Positions 16,388 to 24,802 of a stretch of 64,000 nt of DNA are shown here, piece after piece. The translations under genes were made by a program, and so were the position numbers. The number at the start of each line of letters is the position of its first letter. Position 1 is the stretch's first letter. The notes under the pieces are model-generated. The model did not search any database, was not told the DNA's origin, and saw nothing but the letters and a program-made list of their open reading frames with translations. This stretch comes from Bacteroidota bacterium (GTDB lineage Bacteria > Bacteroidota > Bacteroidia > M30B66), in assembly GCA_027490225.1 (NCBI GenBank), contig JAIXYK010000037.1, positions 1 through 64,000 on the forward strand, read 5' to 3'.

Positions 16388-17308
16388 TTGGAAACGATTT
16401 TACTCGCATTGTCAACACCATTAATGGTGATACTTATAGTTTTTGAATTGCTATATAGCCATTATGCCAAAAAGGAATTATATGCAACAGGAGATACAAT
16501 TATAAACCTGATATGTACTTCTTGGAACTTTCTGAATGATTTGTTATTCAGGGTTGTAACATTATTTATTTTGACATGTGCTGGAACTTTTTCAATAGTC
16601 CACTTTGGAGAAAAAGGCATCATTTATTGGGTATTGTTGTTTCTAGCTGAAGATATTGCTTATTATGTTTTGCATTGTGCTGACCATTATATTCGAATAT
16701 TTTGGGCCTCTCATGTAACACATCATTCAAGCGAGAAATTCAATCTTACGGTTGCTATAAGGTCTTCAGTGTTTCAACCTTATTACAGGTTCATATTTTA
16801 TTTGCCACTTGCTTTGTTGGGTTTTGAGGCATTAGATATTGTTTTTATGTACGCTGCTTGCCAGGTATATGGTTTTTGGGTACATACAGAAACTATCGGT
16901 AAAATGCCAGCTTGGTTTGAATACATTTTTGTAACTCCTTCTCACCACAGAGTTCATCATGGTTCAAATGCAATATATTTGGACAAGAATATGGGGATGG
17001 CATTAATTATCTGGGATAGAATATTTGGAACATTTCAGGAGGAATTGAAAGAGGAGCCGGTGAAGTTTGGACTTACTACCAATGTGAAAAGTTATCATCC
17101 AATTAAGGTAGTTTTTTTTGAATGGAAGCAAATTATTTCAGATTTGAAGGATACTGAAAAAAGAAAATATGCTTTCAAATATCTATTTGGTCCTCCTGGT
17201 TGGAGTCATGATGGTAGTCGAAAAACTTCAACAGAACTGAGAGCCGAACTGAAAAATAATTTAGACAAAAGTCATGCAAGTGTTGTAGAGTATAGTGTTG
17301 ATGTTTAG
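16388..17308 (+). CDS. Sterol desaturase/fatty acid hydroxylase family membrane protein (TTG start)
   Basis: Histidine clusters HCADHY, HVTHHSSE, HHRVHHGSN. Confidence 0.9.
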   Translation: METILLALSTPLMVILIVFELLYSHYAKKELYATGDTIINLICTSWNFLNDLLFRVVTLFILTCAGTFSIVHFGEKGIIYWVLLFLAEDIAYYVLHCADHYIRIFWASHVTHHSSEKFNLTVAIRSSVFQPYYRFIFYLPLALLGFEALDIVFMYAACQVYGFWVHTETIGKMPAWFEYIFVTPSHHRVHHGSNAIYLDKNMGMALIIWDRIFGTFQEELKEEPVKFGLTTNVKSYHPIKVVFFEWKQIISDLKDTEKRKYAFKYLFGPPGWSHDGSRKTSTELRAELKNNLDKSHASVVEYSVDV

Positions 17309-17386: not shown

Positions 17387-17417
17387 TTTGTATTTTCATT
17401 TGTATGTTATATATTTG
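17387..17417 (+). promoter_or_regulatory. Bacteroidota sigma-A-type promoter TTTG-N19-TATATTTG
   Basis: TTTG at 17387-17390 and TATATTTG (TAnnTTTG) at 17410-17417, 37 bp upstream of ATG 17454. Confidence 0.65.
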
Positions 17418-17453
17418 CGAAGACAAAGTGAACAAGCCCCTAAATCTCAACAC

Positions 17454-17654
17454 ATGAACAAAAGTACATTTTTAACACTCGGAGTAATATTAGTTTCATC
17501 AGCTTTTAGCGCACTTTTAGCAACTCCACTTCCTCCAGACCCTTCTTTAATTCCGATTGACGGTGGTGTTTCTTTGCTAGTAGCTGCATGCGTTGGTTAC
17601 GGCGTTAAAAAGATTTACGATTCTAGAAAAGATACAAATACTCCATCTAAGTAA
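17454..17654 (+). CDS. PID-CTERM-like micro-protein (putative exosortase substrate)
   Basis: 66 aa: signal peptide, short Pro-rich segment TPLPPDPSLIPIDGG, TM helix, basic tail KKIYDSRK. The supplied ORF start at 17388 lies inside the promoter. Confidence 0.8.
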   Translation: MNKSTFLTLGVILVSSAFSALLATPLPPDPSLIPIDGGVSLLVAACVGYGVKKIYDSRKDTNTPSK

Positions 17655-17668
17655 GATAAAATTTAGTT

Positions 17669-18220
17669 TTGGAGGGGTTTAAATCCATTAATATATTTTT
17701 ATTAAAAGTATTTGGATTTTATTTATTCTGGTTTATAAGTGATGAATATCTGAGTCATAACTTTATATTCTACAATAAAGTTTGGACCTTTTTCTACCAC
17801 ATTTTGATTGTTTCAGCCAATCATTTATCCGTTTTTTTTCTCGATTTAGTTGGTTACGATGTAGTTCATAACTACAGATCTATTGCTGTTGTTGGTTCCT
17901 TTGGTGTTACAATAGGAAATTATTGTGCTGGTTTTGGATTAATGTATGGATGTTTTGCTTTGTTTACTTCATATCCTGCTCCAATAAAAAAGAAATTATG
18001 GTTTGTACCGCTTTCTGTTTTTTTGGTTTTTTTGTTTAATATAGGAAGAGTTATATTCCTAACATTAAATGCCTATTATTCGCCAAAAGAAACGTTTAAT
18101 GACCAGCATGATTTCTTTAACAACATCATTTACATTCTAGTATTTGTTCTTTGGGTGATTTGGATTAAATTCATTATTCCGACCAAAGAAGTCAAAGAAT
18201 CTAAATTATCAGTTAATTAG
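17669..18220 (+). CDS. Archaeosortase/exosortase family protein (TTG start)
   Basis: 183-aa multi-TM protein with Cys (GNYCAGFGLMYG), Arg (FNIGRVIFLTL) and His (NDQHDFFNNIIYIL) in exosortase-like order; adjacent to a PID-CTERM-like substrate. Confidence 0.8.
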   Translation: MEGFKSINIFLLKVFGFYLFWFISDEYLSHNFIFYNKVWTFFYHILIVSANHLSVFFLDLVGYDVVHNYRSIAVVGSFGVTIGNYCAGFGLMYGCFALFTSYPAPIKKKLWFVPLSVFLVFLFNIGRVIFLTLNAYYSPKETFNDQHDFFNNIIYILVFVLWVIWIKFIIPTKEVKESKLSVN

Positions 18221-19346: not shown

Positions 19347-21209
19347 TTAATGTTGAATCAGTAATCGCTTAAATTCTTGTTTATTCAACTTATCATTATT
19401 CAATTTCAACAAATAAATTCCGTTGCTTAAATTACTAGTATTCACTACATTAATTCCTTTGTTCAAATCGTTTTTAAGAATAAATTTACCCGTTAAATCA
19501 TAATATTCAACCGTTGTATATTCAGTTTGAAGATTGTTAATGGTAAAATACTGGTCAGCAGGATTTGGGTAAATCGATGCTTCATTTGTTTCTGAGTTTT
19601 CTGTTTTTTCAATTGCAGTGTACAATGTTTCTGATGTTCCAAACATTGGTCTAATCATCAATGTTCCAGCTTGTGCAGTATAGTTATTCCATGCACCTGA
19701 TTGATTATAAAAAATCCTGTCGTTATTGTTGAGGTTTCTATCAAAACCGAGGTTCAGATTAAAATTTCCTGTTTGCGCCCAGCCAAAGTAGTATGTACCG
19801 GCATTTAAAAATTGAGGCTCATCTAATTCGTACGTGTAAAATTTATTTACTCCGTCATATTGAGGATATAGTAAGCCCTGTGTGTAAATATTCTGTCCGG
19901 GAACATTGCTACCTGCCGACCATATCATTAAAAAGAAAGGCCCTTGAGAAACTGAATCAACTTTGTTAAAATAGAACTGCACAGCTTTTAAGGTGTCTGA
20001 TTTTAAGGTTTCAAATCTTTGGGCTACAAAACCCCCACCCTGGTTTTCTAAACCAATTCTTTCTTCAGCAGTTCCGTCATCAAGTGCGTAATAGTTGCAT
20101 AGAATCTGTTCGTAATAAGCTGTGTCGTTTGTGACAATATTATCGGAATTATCTAAAAGAAAATGTTTCAATTGATAAATAGCACAATCGTTTCCCTGGT
20201 CTTCAAAAGTATATTTGATAACTGATGAAAAAGTAAATTCTTGTCTATACACAATTGGACCTTGAGGTGCCGAACTAATTGAATCTCTAATTTCACCTAA
20301 ATCATTTTCAAAATAATATTTATACAGTTTATTAGTGCTTCCTGTGGCGTTGTTGGTTAAAGAGAGCGTATAATTAAGACCCATGTTATCATCTGCGTTT
20401 ATCAAAAAATGACTTAATGGAACTGATGTGTATTCTTTTAACAAACTACCACCTCTGTACATATAAGCAACATCTTGATAAGCAGTATCATTTCTGTTTC
20501 TTAACCTGTCGAGCCTAACATAATCTAAGTGCCAATGGTCCCAACTTCCATTTAACTGTGCATAGTTCCTAAATCTAAATTGAAAGCCATTTTTCAAAAA
20601 TGCAGTATCAGTAATTGGAATCATTGCTCTTTTAAAGTCAATGTTTGTTTGGGGGAAATCTTCACCAGGCACGCTCCATGCGTATGTCCAAACACTATCA
20701 TTGGGATTTTTAAATTCAACTTGAAATGTATCAACATACTCTGGATAATTTCCTAATCCCTTAGGCTGATAATAAAAGCTCAGGTAAATAGAATCTGATG
20801 GCGGGTAATCTAAATTTATAGGCAAAGAAGTAAGTGTATCTGCAGAACCATGCGAAATTGTTGCCCTGTAAGGAAAACCGTCTCTGTTTAATCCATCAAA
20901 AGTAGCAACACCCCAACTAGGCGGTTTTACAGGGTAATCGGTATTTATAAAAACAGAATTATTCAACCATTTTGCTGGATCTGGTTTTATCCACATAGAA
21001 GAAAAGTCTTCAAAAAATGGTAACTCTAATGTATCTGGAAAATCTCTGGAAGCGCTGGTTGAAATATTTTGCGAGGTAGCTGCTTGTTCTTTGGTATTAG
21101 AACCAAGTGGCTGAACAATTAGTTGAGCAAACGTTAAATTTATTCCTGAATACATCAGGGAAATCAACAAAAAGAATTTAATCCAATGTATCTGCTGCAG
21201 TTTTTTCAT
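19347..21209 (-). CDS. Large secreted protein with T9SS type A sorting tail
   Basis: Signal peptide; C-terminus IYPNPADQYFTINNL...NGIYLLKLNNDKLNKQEFKRLLIQH; start overlaps the end of the PASTA gene. Confidence 0.85.
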   Translation of the reverse strand: MKKLQQIHWIKFFLLISLMYSGINLTFAQLIVQPLGSNTKEQAATSQNISTSASRDFPDTLELPFFEDFSSMWIKPDPAKWLNNSVFINTDYPVKPPSWGVATFDGLNRDGFPYRATISHGSADTLTSLPINLDYPPSDSIYLSFYYQPKGLGNYPEYVDTFQVEFKNPNDSVWTYAWSVPGEDFPQTNIDFKRAMIPITDTAFLKNGFQFRFRNYAQLNGSWDHWHLDYVRLDRLRNRNDTAYQDVAYMYRGGSLLKEYTSVPLSHFLINADDNMGLNYTLSLTNNATGSTNKLYKYYFENDLGEIRDSISSAPQGPIVYRQEFTFSSVIKYTFEDQGNDCAIYQLKHFLLDNSDNIVTNDTAYYEQILCNYYALDDGTAEERIGLENQGGGFVAQRFETLKSDTLKAVQFYFNKVDSVSQGPFFLMIWSAGSNVPGQNIYTQGLLYPQYDGVNKFYTYELDEPQFLNAGTYYFGWAQTGNFNLNLGFDRNLNNNDRIFYNQSGAWNNYTAQAGTLMIRPMFGTSETLYTAIEKTENSETNEASIYPNPADQYFTINNLQTEYTTVEYYDLTGKFILKNDLNKGINVVNTSNLSNGIYLLKLNNDKLNKQEFKRLLIQH

Positions 21210-21975
21210 TTTCAAGTACTTCTTCAGAACCGGTAATTAATACGTCGATACTGGCACCTGAGTACAAGCCTTCTTCGTTTATTCCAGGCGTTTGTTTGTA
21301 AATTTTAGCTATTGTTGTGTCTTGGCCAGTTGCATCGGGTAAAAATGAACCTAGAATTAAGTTACTACTGGATAGTATTTTCCTAGCTTCAGTAATGGTT
21401 AAACCAAATAAATCGGGCACAGGTATTAATCCTCTTCCGCCGCCTCTTCCAACTACCAAGTCTATTTCTGAACCTTTATCTATCATTGTACCTGGAACAA
21501 TTTTTTGCCCTTTGTATAATTGTTCTATCACTGGCGGCAAACCTTCTACATAACGCAACATTCCCACTTTTAGTCCATACGTTTCTAATAAAGATGTAGA
21601 TTGACGTAAAGATAAATCTACCAGGTTCGGCATGGCGACTTTTTGAGATAAAATTGCATTCACGGTTAAGTAAACGGTTCGTCCATGTTTAACAGTAGCG
21701 CCTGGTAAAGGATCTTGATCAATCACCGTTCCTTTGGTTAGTTTTAGGTTGTAAATAGAATCTACTACTTCATATTGCAAATCGTGACCTTCAACAAATT
21801 TATCTAAGTCTTTTGCGTAAATACCTTGGAAATTTGGCACTTCTACATGTTCGTTATGCAATGTATACATATCGAGAAAAAATGCACAGCCCCAAAGAAA
21901 TAGCAATACAGAGGTTGTTGCCACTAAAAAATGGCGCCAGAATAATTTAGATTTCAGAAATTCCTTCAAATTCAT
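21178..21975 (-). CDS. PASTA domain membrane protein
   Basis: N-terminal TM followed by repeated PASTA units (VEVPNFQGIYAKDL.., VAMPNLVDLSLRQS.., IPVPDLFGLTITEA..). Confidence 0.9.
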   Translation of the reverse strand: MNLKEFLKSKLFWRHFLVATTSVLLFLWGCAFFLDMYTLHNEHVEVPNFQGIYAKDLDKFVEGHDLQYEVVDSIYNLKLTKGTVIDQDPLPGATVKHGRTVYLTVNAILSQKVAMPNLVDLSLRQSTSLLETYGLKVGMLRYVEGLPPVIEQLYKGQKIVPGTMIDKGSEIDLVVGRGGGRGLIPVPDLFGLTITEARKILSSSNLILGSFLPDATGQDTTIAKIYKQTPGINEEGLYSGASIDVLITGSEEVLENEKTAADTLD

Positions 21976-21979
21976 TGTT

Positions 21980-24676
21980 TCAAAAAGCCATTTTTTCGGA
22001 CGACATATTTGCTTCGGCAAAAGTCATTATTTTTTCTATAAAATCGTAAGGTTTATACCCATTGATTGCACTTTGATGGAAAATACAAGTTGCAGGTGTC
22101 ATTCCGGGTAGCGAATTTACTTCAATAAATATTACTTCCACCTTGTTATCGTTGAATATTCTTACAAATGCATCAATTCTGCAATACCCGCGAACATTGA
22201 GAATTCGAGCAGCTTTTTCTAATTGATTTTTCACAATTTGAGAAACTTCATTTCTTCTCTTCGCATCTTTTGAATAACGGGCCGGTGTAATATTTTGGCC
22301 TTGTCCAGCTAAGAATTTTTCTTCTAAAGACAAAACTTCACCTTCCGACAAAGCTTCAGAAGCTTCAAAAACCTCGTACCTGATATTTCCGTTTTCTTCT
22401 AGATGGGTAAGCATTCCACCAGTAATTTCTAAAAAAGTAGGGGCTCCATTTGCAGTTATTAAGGCCTCCACCAAAAATTGTCGCTTCATAGGAAACTCCT
22501 CTTTCGGCTTTATTTTTAGCTGGGCAGATGCAGCACTATCGAAAGTTTCTTCTTTCCTGAAAATTAATTTGGCAAATGCTTTTAAGTCAGCATCGTTGTG
22601 CAGTTTTTTTACTGCAGAGCTGCAACCATCGTCAACTGGTTTTGCTATAAGCGGATAGCCTACGCGGTTAGCATGTGCTATAATTTGGTCTTCGTTGAGC
22701 TGCCATTCTTCTTCTTTCACTACAAAATGCTCCGCAACCAGCAATCCATTTTCTTTGAGCAATTCGTTGGTACGGAATTTATCGATTGTAATGCTAGAAG
22801 AATCTGCATCAGAACCATTGTGAGGCAGGTGAATGCGATTTAAAATGCGTTGAAGTGCGCCATCTTCACCCGGACGGCCATGCAAGGCAATAAATACTTC
22901 TTCTACTTCAATGGCCAATTGCTCGTAGCTGAGCTGTTTAGGCGCTTGTAAATTTTTAGTATTTCCAAATTTCACCGTTAATGCCTTGCACTCTTCAATT
23001 ATTTTGTGAATGATTGGATGCACTGAAAAATGCTTAATTTTTTCATAGATATCATCTGCATTGTCTTTCAACATCAAATTGATTGGAATAGAATAGAGTT
23101 CATGTTGCTCATCGTTTCCACTCAAAAAGACTGGTATAGGCTCGAATACGGCTGAGGAACTTAGTTTTTCGTATACATTGCGACCACTTTCTACAGAGAT
23201 ATGTCTTTCTGAGGAATAGCCGCCAAAAATCACTGCGATTTTTTTCTTTGCAATTACGTTTCCTCCTGTTTCATTCAGCTTTTTTTCTAATAGTTCTAAC
23301 AAATGCTCCGGCGTTCCATTGTACTTAAATTCTGCAATGCGCTTGCGCAAAGAAGTGTAGATGATATAGGTTATAAATTGAGAAGGATTGAAACCAATTT
23401 CTGCTGCCTGGTGGAAAAAGAACGAAGAAGGCATCATGCCCGAAGTGGTGTTTGGGTCGTTCAAGAAAACTGTTCCAGCATCGTTTATAAAACCATCGAT
23501 ACGCGCATACACGCCAAAATCTAAAGCTGTATAAAGGTTTTTGCAGGCTTCGCGAATGGCTTCAATTTGCTGGTCGGGCAATTGTATGGGCGTAATTTTT
23601 CTCGACAGACCTGGTAAGTACTTAGAACGATAATCAAAGATTTCTTTTCCTTTTCTAATTTCTGTGGGAGGAAGACAAATTGGTTCACCATTTAGGCCTT
23701 CAATAACGATGGATGAGAATTCTTTTCCTTCAATGAATCCTTCAATTAAAATTTCACTTTCTGCATCCAGCGATTCTAAACACAATTCCAAAGCATGCGG
23801 ATGGGCAAAATGTTGCGTAACGCGCTCCAAAACAGCGTCAGGATGGTAATACACCACATGATGAATCCGCAATGGAATACCAATTCCTTCTCTGATATCG
23901 CAGCAATTGCGCACCCATTCAATTTTTTGTGTAGCACTTAGTTTTTCCCAATCTTGTTGGTTGATGCGTTTGATAAAGAAACTACGGTCGATGGCTTGTT
24001 TTAAGGTTGCTGAATTGGCTTCTTTTATTACACTCACACCAATGGAAGAACCTTGAGTAGGAGATTTTACCACGCAAGGATAGTGGATGTGTTGCGCAAT
24101 TTGTTGTTCAATTTCATTTACATTTTGCTGTGCAATCCATTGTTGTCTGCTGATGGTAAAGAAATCTGGACTAGGAAAACCATGCAGCTTCATTAATTTT
24201 TTCTGAACAATTTTGTTGATGCCTATGCCGCTGGCGAGAATTCCAGAGCCGGTATATGGTATATCGAGGTGTTCAAACAAACCTTGAATTCTTCCGTCTT
24301 CACCAAACGGACCGTGAAGGCATAAAAAAGCGAGGTCAATTTGTTTTTTAAGTTCTTCGGCTGGAATGATTTTCCCAATGGTTTGAAGCAAAGATTGCTG
24401 GTGAGATTTTTCGAATGCACCTAAAGATTCTGCATAAATTTGGAAATCGTTGGGCGAAGCGGGAATGTCTTGCGCTGCAGGATAGAAGTCGCGAATACTA
24501 CCTTTGTAAATATATTGCCAATCGAGGAGTACAAAGTTGTTGAAGCTATCTACAAAAATAGGTACAGCTTCGAAGAGGCTTTTATTAAGATTATCGTATA
24601 CGGTGCGGCCTCCTGCAAAAGAGATTTCACGTTCTTTAGAGCGACCGCCAAAAATAATTCCGATTTTAAGTTTCAT
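21980..24676 (-). CDS. Tandem-fused D-alanine--D-alanine ligase (two ATP-grasp ligase modules in one ORF)
   Basis: Module 1: IGIIFGGRSKEREISFAGG...CLHGPFGEDGRIQG...; module 2: KKIAVIFGGYSSERHISVESG...ALHGRPGEDGALQ...FIEVNSLPGMTP. Start set at MKLKIG (24676). Confidence 0.9.
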   Translation of the reverse strand: MKLKIGIIFGGRSKEREISFAGGRTVYDNLNKSLFEAVPIFVDSFNNFVLLDWQYIYKGSIRDFYPAAQDIPASPNDFQIYAESLGAFEKSHQQSLLQTIGKIIPAEELKKQIDLAFLCLHGPFGEDGRIQGLFEHLDIPYTGSGILASGIGINKIVQKKLMKLHGFPSPDFFTISRQQWIAQQNVNEIEQQIAQHIHYPCVVKSPTQGSSIGVSVIKEANSATLKQAIDRSFFIKRINQQDWEKLSATQKIEWVRNCCDIREGIGIPLRIHHVVYYHPDAVLERVTQHFAHPHALELCLESLDAESEILIEGFIEGKEFSSIVIEGLNGEPICLPPTEIRKGKEIFDYRSKYLPGLSRKITPIQLPDQQIEAIREACKNLYTALDFGVYARIDGFINDAGTVFLNDPNTTSGMMPSSFFFHQAAEIGFNPSQFITYIIYTSLRKRIAEFKYNGTPEHLLELLEKKLNETGGNVIAKKKIAVIFGGYSSERHISVESGRNVYEKLSSSAVFEPIPVFLSGNDEQHELYSIPINLMLKDNADDIYEKIKHFSVHPIIHKIIEECKALTVKFGNTKNLQAPKQLSYEQLAIEVEEVFIALHGRPGEDGALQRILNRIHLPHNGSDADSSSITIDKFRTNELLKENGLLVAEHFVVKEEEWQLNEDQIIAHANRVGYPLIAKPVDDGCSSAVKKLHNDADLKAFAKLIFRKEETFDSAASAQLKIKPKEEFPMKRQFLVEALITANGAPTFLEITGGMLTHLEENGNIRYEVFEASEALSEGEVLSLEEKFLAGQGQNITPARYSKDAKRRNEVSQIVKNQLEKAARILNVRGYCRIDAFVRIFNDNKVEVIFIEVNSLPGMTPATCIFHQSAINGYKPYDFIEKIMTFAEANMSSEKMAF

Positions 24677-24802
24677 TGTGTTATAGATGCACGTAAACGG
24701 TAAAACTACACCCAAATTATAGCAAATAGAATCTGTGTAGAATTATTTATTAACGCTTAATAATTAATAATTAAAAATGAATAATTAATGATTGGCGCTG
24801 TA

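Follow-up and report, generated by a model that had tools for sequence, protein, structure and literature searches.

A PID-CTERM microprotein gene and its adjoining exosortase in a Bacteroidota genome, and a possible connection with RemA-type T9SS adhesins

The window, i.e., the whole 64,000-nucleotide stretch of a Bacteroidota genome that was analyzed, contains two small open reading frames in the places where an earlier note, made from the sequence, had put them: a 66-aa frame and, beginning 14 bp after it, a 183-aa frame. The features of the locus, all on the plus strand, are given below.

16388–17308 (+): fatty acid hydroxylase superfamily gene (PF04116), the constant neighbor upstream of the pair, also at loci L094–L100
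17387–17417 (+): predicted promoter of the pair, TTTG-N19-TATATTTG, by match to the Bacteroidetes-type consensus
17454–17654 (+): PID-CTERM microprotein gene, 66 aa, ATG start, matching NF046080 and kept in the window's family
17454–17522 (+): predicted signal peptide MNKSTFLTLGVILVSSAFSALLA, cut after A23 according to a rule-based prediction across 79 homologues
17523–17561 (+): predicted mature core TPLPPDPSLIPID, 13 aa, from the site prediction, with equivalent cores conserved in paralogues
17669–18220 (+): exosortase-family protein gene, 183 aa, TTG start, matching TIGR04178 and PF09721, with Cys86, Asn124, Arg127, and His147

As translated from the window, the microprotein reads MNKSTFLTLGVILVSSAFSALLA-TPLPPDPSLIPID-GGVSLLVAACVGYGVKKIYDSRKDTNTPSK and consists of a signal peptide, the Pro-rich core TPLPPDPSLIPID, a GG-TM helix, and a basic tail. 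The NCBIfam model PID_CTERM (NF046080; cutoff 26 bits) matched it C-terminally, at residues 34 to 56, with 41.6 bits (E 7.5e-11), so that the earlier assignment to PID-CTERM held when the HMM check was run; the predicted 13-residue core likewise agrees with the peptide-sized mature product that had been proposed. The ATG at 17454 was taken as the start because the predicted promoter lies at 17387–17417 and the spacing of its −7 box is kept in relatives, a TAnnTTTG box being found 36 to 45 bp 5′ of the microprotein start in the window and in six relatives of the same family. An 88-aa version with a TTG start (from 17388) was rejected as the gene since the promoter falls within it. In profile searches of the genome, this pair comprised the single PID-CTERM protein and the single exosortase above cutoff, which argues against a chance pairing; three weak PID matches elsewhere in the genome were discarded on reading their sequences.

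Membership of the 183-aa protein in the exosortase family, as the earlier note had claimed, was borne out by TIGR04178, the exosortase/archaeosortase signature (49.0 bits, cutoff 23), and by PF09721, the Pfam EpsH model (47.1 bits, cutoff 25.7). The order of Cys, Arg, and His residues read from the sequence also withstood alignment, with Cys86, Asn124, and Arg127 invariant in 63/63 exosortase homologues and the His motif present in 61 of the 63, the other two having a His nearby. The locus resembles the XrtX/PID-CTERM system (NF046081, NF046080, and NF046082), in which a microprotein likewise lies directly upstream of a small exosortase, but the window enzyme scored only 85.3 bits on the Exosortase X model (NF046081, cutoff 170; 103.7 bits for the enzyme of L005 from the same family), as compared to 185 to 193 bits for four exosortases from other families. 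The Exosortase Y model (NF046083) gave 62.4 bits against a cutoff of 160, and the XrtX-associated membrane protein (NF046082) had no match in 10/10 genomes of the window's family searched. In a quick tree, the exosortases of this family formed one group (SH-aLRT 99) that fell next to the f13 enzymes (95) and did not join the group of the XrtX enzymes, the deeper forks being weakly supported. We therefore assign the window enzyme to an unnamed subfamily, given scores far below the XrtX and XrtY cutoffs, its own tree group, and a family lacking the XrtX-associated membrane protein. A PDB search with the exosortase gave no match, and an AlphaFold model from two sequences (pLDDT 45) was too poor to interpret.

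XrtF of Flavobacterium johnsoniae is likewise a small Bacteroidota exosortase, and strains mutated in it colonize surfaces less well (PMC10936215), but on the XrtF model the window enzyme reached 34 bits with a cutoff of 90. The authors of that study predicted XrtF substrates to be unlike PEP-CTERM proteins and deferred them to future work (PMC10936215). In the PEP-CTERM/EpsH and PGF-CTERM/ArtA systems, too, a membrane enzyme with Cys, Arg, and His cuts a signal made of motif, TM segment, and basic tail; in contrast to the window's substrate, which would leave nothing protein-sized, theirs include full-size surface proteins. The term “PID-CTERM” was absent from the open PMC literature searched, “XrtX” returned nothing relevant there, and the aminolipid paper that mentions exosortase gives no mechanism for the enzyme.

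The window's family retains one gene order, namely glpD, fatty acid hydroxylase, microprotein, exosortase, rluD. Six further genomes from this family carry microprotein and exosortase intact and adjacent, in line with the co-occurrence in relatives expected by the earlier note. The copy in G009 is interrupted by a contig end. At locus L003 (genome G002), the microprotein is frame-disrupted beside an intact exosortase, reflecting either sequencing error or decay. In the window's family, the gene immediately before the microprotein does not encode a T9SS CTD; the hydroxylase holds the position that T9SS cargo has in other families. The order in family f20 (L121), namely cargo, microprotein, exosortase, rluD, resembles that of the window with the hydroxylase in place of the cargo, which suggests that the window's family may have lost its adjacent cargo; the f20 exosortase falls in the XrtX group of the quick tree. 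That the hydroxylase could alter a lipid acceptor is speculation, and its candidacy as acceptor-lipid maker was left at that, as it adjoins the pair only in the window's family among the loci examined. Beyond rluD, the window also encodes a 622-aa T9SS type A cargo (19347–21215, minus strand; TIGR04183, 43.8 bits) that is kept in the family, and a 911-aa protein (21980–24715, minus strand) whose single chain holds two D-Ala-D-Ala ligase units, with two N-terminal domain matches and halves ∼26% alike.

Nearly all PID-CTERM matches in two surveys lay in open frames of less than 200 codons, and the 79 microproteins collected had a median length of 70 aa. The module had been described as unusually minimal, but such micro size is thus normal for PID-CTERM proteins. 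Five more microproteins, each beside an exosortase, fell under the model threshold. Taken between the predicted signal peptidase cut and the PID Asp, the Pro-rich core of the 79 spans 11 to 32 residues (median 18), with 35% Pro and almost no Lys or Arg. Gln occupies the predicted +1 position in 52 of the 79, a count biased upward by a site rule that favors Gln, and agrees with the published Q-rule for signal peptidase I (PMC5837995); microproteins of the window's family mostly have Thr there. Two Cys residues occur in 27 cores (e.g., at L122 and L115), 24 of them CWPPxC-like and none from the window's family, and may form a disulfide loop. One large PID-bearing protein, the only one among the matches listed in the surveys, is encoded at L107 (7118–10012, minus strand): 965 aa with many apparent membrane segments and a PID-like end (VPIDG). 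It was considered as a fusion of cargo and signal and rejected, as it has no Pfam match and resembles a membrane protein of the multi-pass type and not a RemA-type cargo.

Paralogues within single genomes bear on whether the core itself is retained. Cores were identical in G098 (17/17), G145 (14/14), and G362 (14/14) despite 9, 10, and 6 silent codon differences within them, respectively, while alignment of the signal peptides of the same paralogues showed agreement in only 9/16, 10/19, and 12/19 positions. The core peptide thus looks to be under selection, and of all the evidence, this identity speaks most strongly for the importance of a peptide product. Good conservation extends to the TM segment between the paralogues of G145 and G362, though not of G098, and a same-genome pair in G378 has only 10/15 core residues in common.

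In 18 families other than the window's, a total of 28 microprotein genes follow a large, same-strand T9SS cargo gene at a distance of 4 to 93 bp. Six of the six cargoes scanned matched Por_Secre_tail (Pfam), four above cutoff and two just under, and all three scanned with NCBIfam passed TIGR04183. Ahead of the CTD, the cargoes have in common a module of ∼440 model positions, which aligned to residues 903 to 1347 of F. johnsoniae RemA (E 8e-24) and to RemZ (E 5e-20). RemA acts as an adhesin in gliding, and its homologue RemZ is a T9SS substrate (PMC10994853); no link of either to an exosortase or PID microprotein was found in the literature searched. Several cargo-microprotein units in family f71 use one exosortase encoded elsewhere, and nine genomes with several PID-CTERM matches have one exosortase each, except for two in one genome. 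Many module-bearing cargoes sit far from any PID gene, and the window's genome encodes five strong module proteins (1299–4869 aa), all away from the pair.

Co-occurrence across genomes follows the same lines. An exosortase match was found in 46/49 PID-positive genomes and 14/51 PID-negative genomes (Fisher p 2e-12). Counted as present at E ≤ 1e-20, the RemA-type module occurred in 57/60 exosortase-positive as compared to 7/40 exosortase-negative genomes (p 3e-16), kinship between genomes inflating such statistics. The pattern was similar with one genome per family (30/31 versus 3/22), with the training genomes left out (46/48 versus 6/34), and among T9SS-rich genomes only (57/59 versus 7/35). 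T9SS alone cannot explain the distribution of the module because T9SS type A CTDs are found in 97/100 relatives. Among the seven module-bearing negatives, G098 has an exosortase that was overlooked by the single-sequence search, G001, G059, and G095 are incomplete genomes, and G050 and G072 have the module with no exosortase detected; conversely, G057 and G087 have an exosortase and no module.

Our preferred explanation, held tentatively and at a little under even confidence, is that the product is an anchored Pro-rich peptide, cut by the exosortase near PID, that helps to retain or assemble RemA-type T9SS adhesins. The microprotein would pass Sec and lose its signal peptide, with the C-terminal helix holding the remainder in the inner membrane; the exosortase would then cleave near the PID-GG boundary through its Cys, Arg, and His residues, and the new C terminus would be joined to lipid or glycan, as proposed for the exosortase family. 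We infer both cleavages, the lipid or glycan anchor, and the docking from sequence and gene order. The result would be a short, rigid, anchored peptide, a ligand that RemA-type adhesins would share for docking or assembly. The genes of these adhesins lie directly before the microprotein in most lineages and elsewhere in the genome in the window's family, where it is co-occurrence that points to the link with cargoes. A lipid- or glycan-anchored peptide was one of two products envisaged in the earlier note, and it would form part of this explanation.

The other, a free peptide signal, which that note had thought to fit best, fares poorly, as in other lineages the microprotein is mostly encoded right behind a large T9SS cargo, and a role in surface display is favored accordingly. 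Release of the mature peptide as a secreted signal or pheromone would suit the short conserved core, the one dedicated processing enzyme, and the identical cores among same-genome paralogues, but the constant partner is a large cargo and not a receptor or transporter gene, the products of exosortase-class enzymes appear to stay anchored (PMC11980579), and one genome may hold six or more microprotein copies; we regard it as the least probable of the readings weighed. Somewhat less improbable, though still unlikely, is that the microprotein stays uncut and, as a membrane hairpin of two helices, acts in the assembly or regulation of the exosortase or T9SS cargo. The very small size of the protein and its conserved TM segment are consistent with a hairpin, but the tripartite sorting signal, the conserved catalytic residues of the exosortase, and the fit of the +1 Gln in most homologues to signal peptidase I cleavage (PMC5837995) argue for processing.

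More serious, if still doubtful, is a peptide acting as exopolysaccharide carrier or anchor, the exosortase coupling it to glycan from nearby polysaccharide machinery. Genes in the vicinity of the locus include a Wzc-type kinase in 14 families and, in 7, an ABC-2 type transporter that probably carries polysaccharide, and PEP-CTERM systems are tied to exopolysaccharide in earlier work (PMC1569441, cited at second hand); however, no kinase or transporter gene of this kind was found beside the pair in the window's family or beside the T9SS-microprotein units of f71, and T9SS cargo is the nearer partner. Within the preferred reading of an anchored peptide that serves RemA-type adhesins, a single pathway can be drawn more speculatively, and we consider it possible at best: an exosortase-made anchored peptide of ∼11 to 32 residues would dock the RemA-type module, such that one enzyme and peptide serve many giant cargoes.

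Gene order and co-occurrence connect PID-CTERM microproteins with the RemA-type T9SS adhesins of gliding and attachment. Retention or assembly of adhesins would be a concrete, testable function for PID-CTERM microproteins, whose role appears undescribed in the open PMC literature, and may represent a common step of two envelope systems that the literature searched handles separately.
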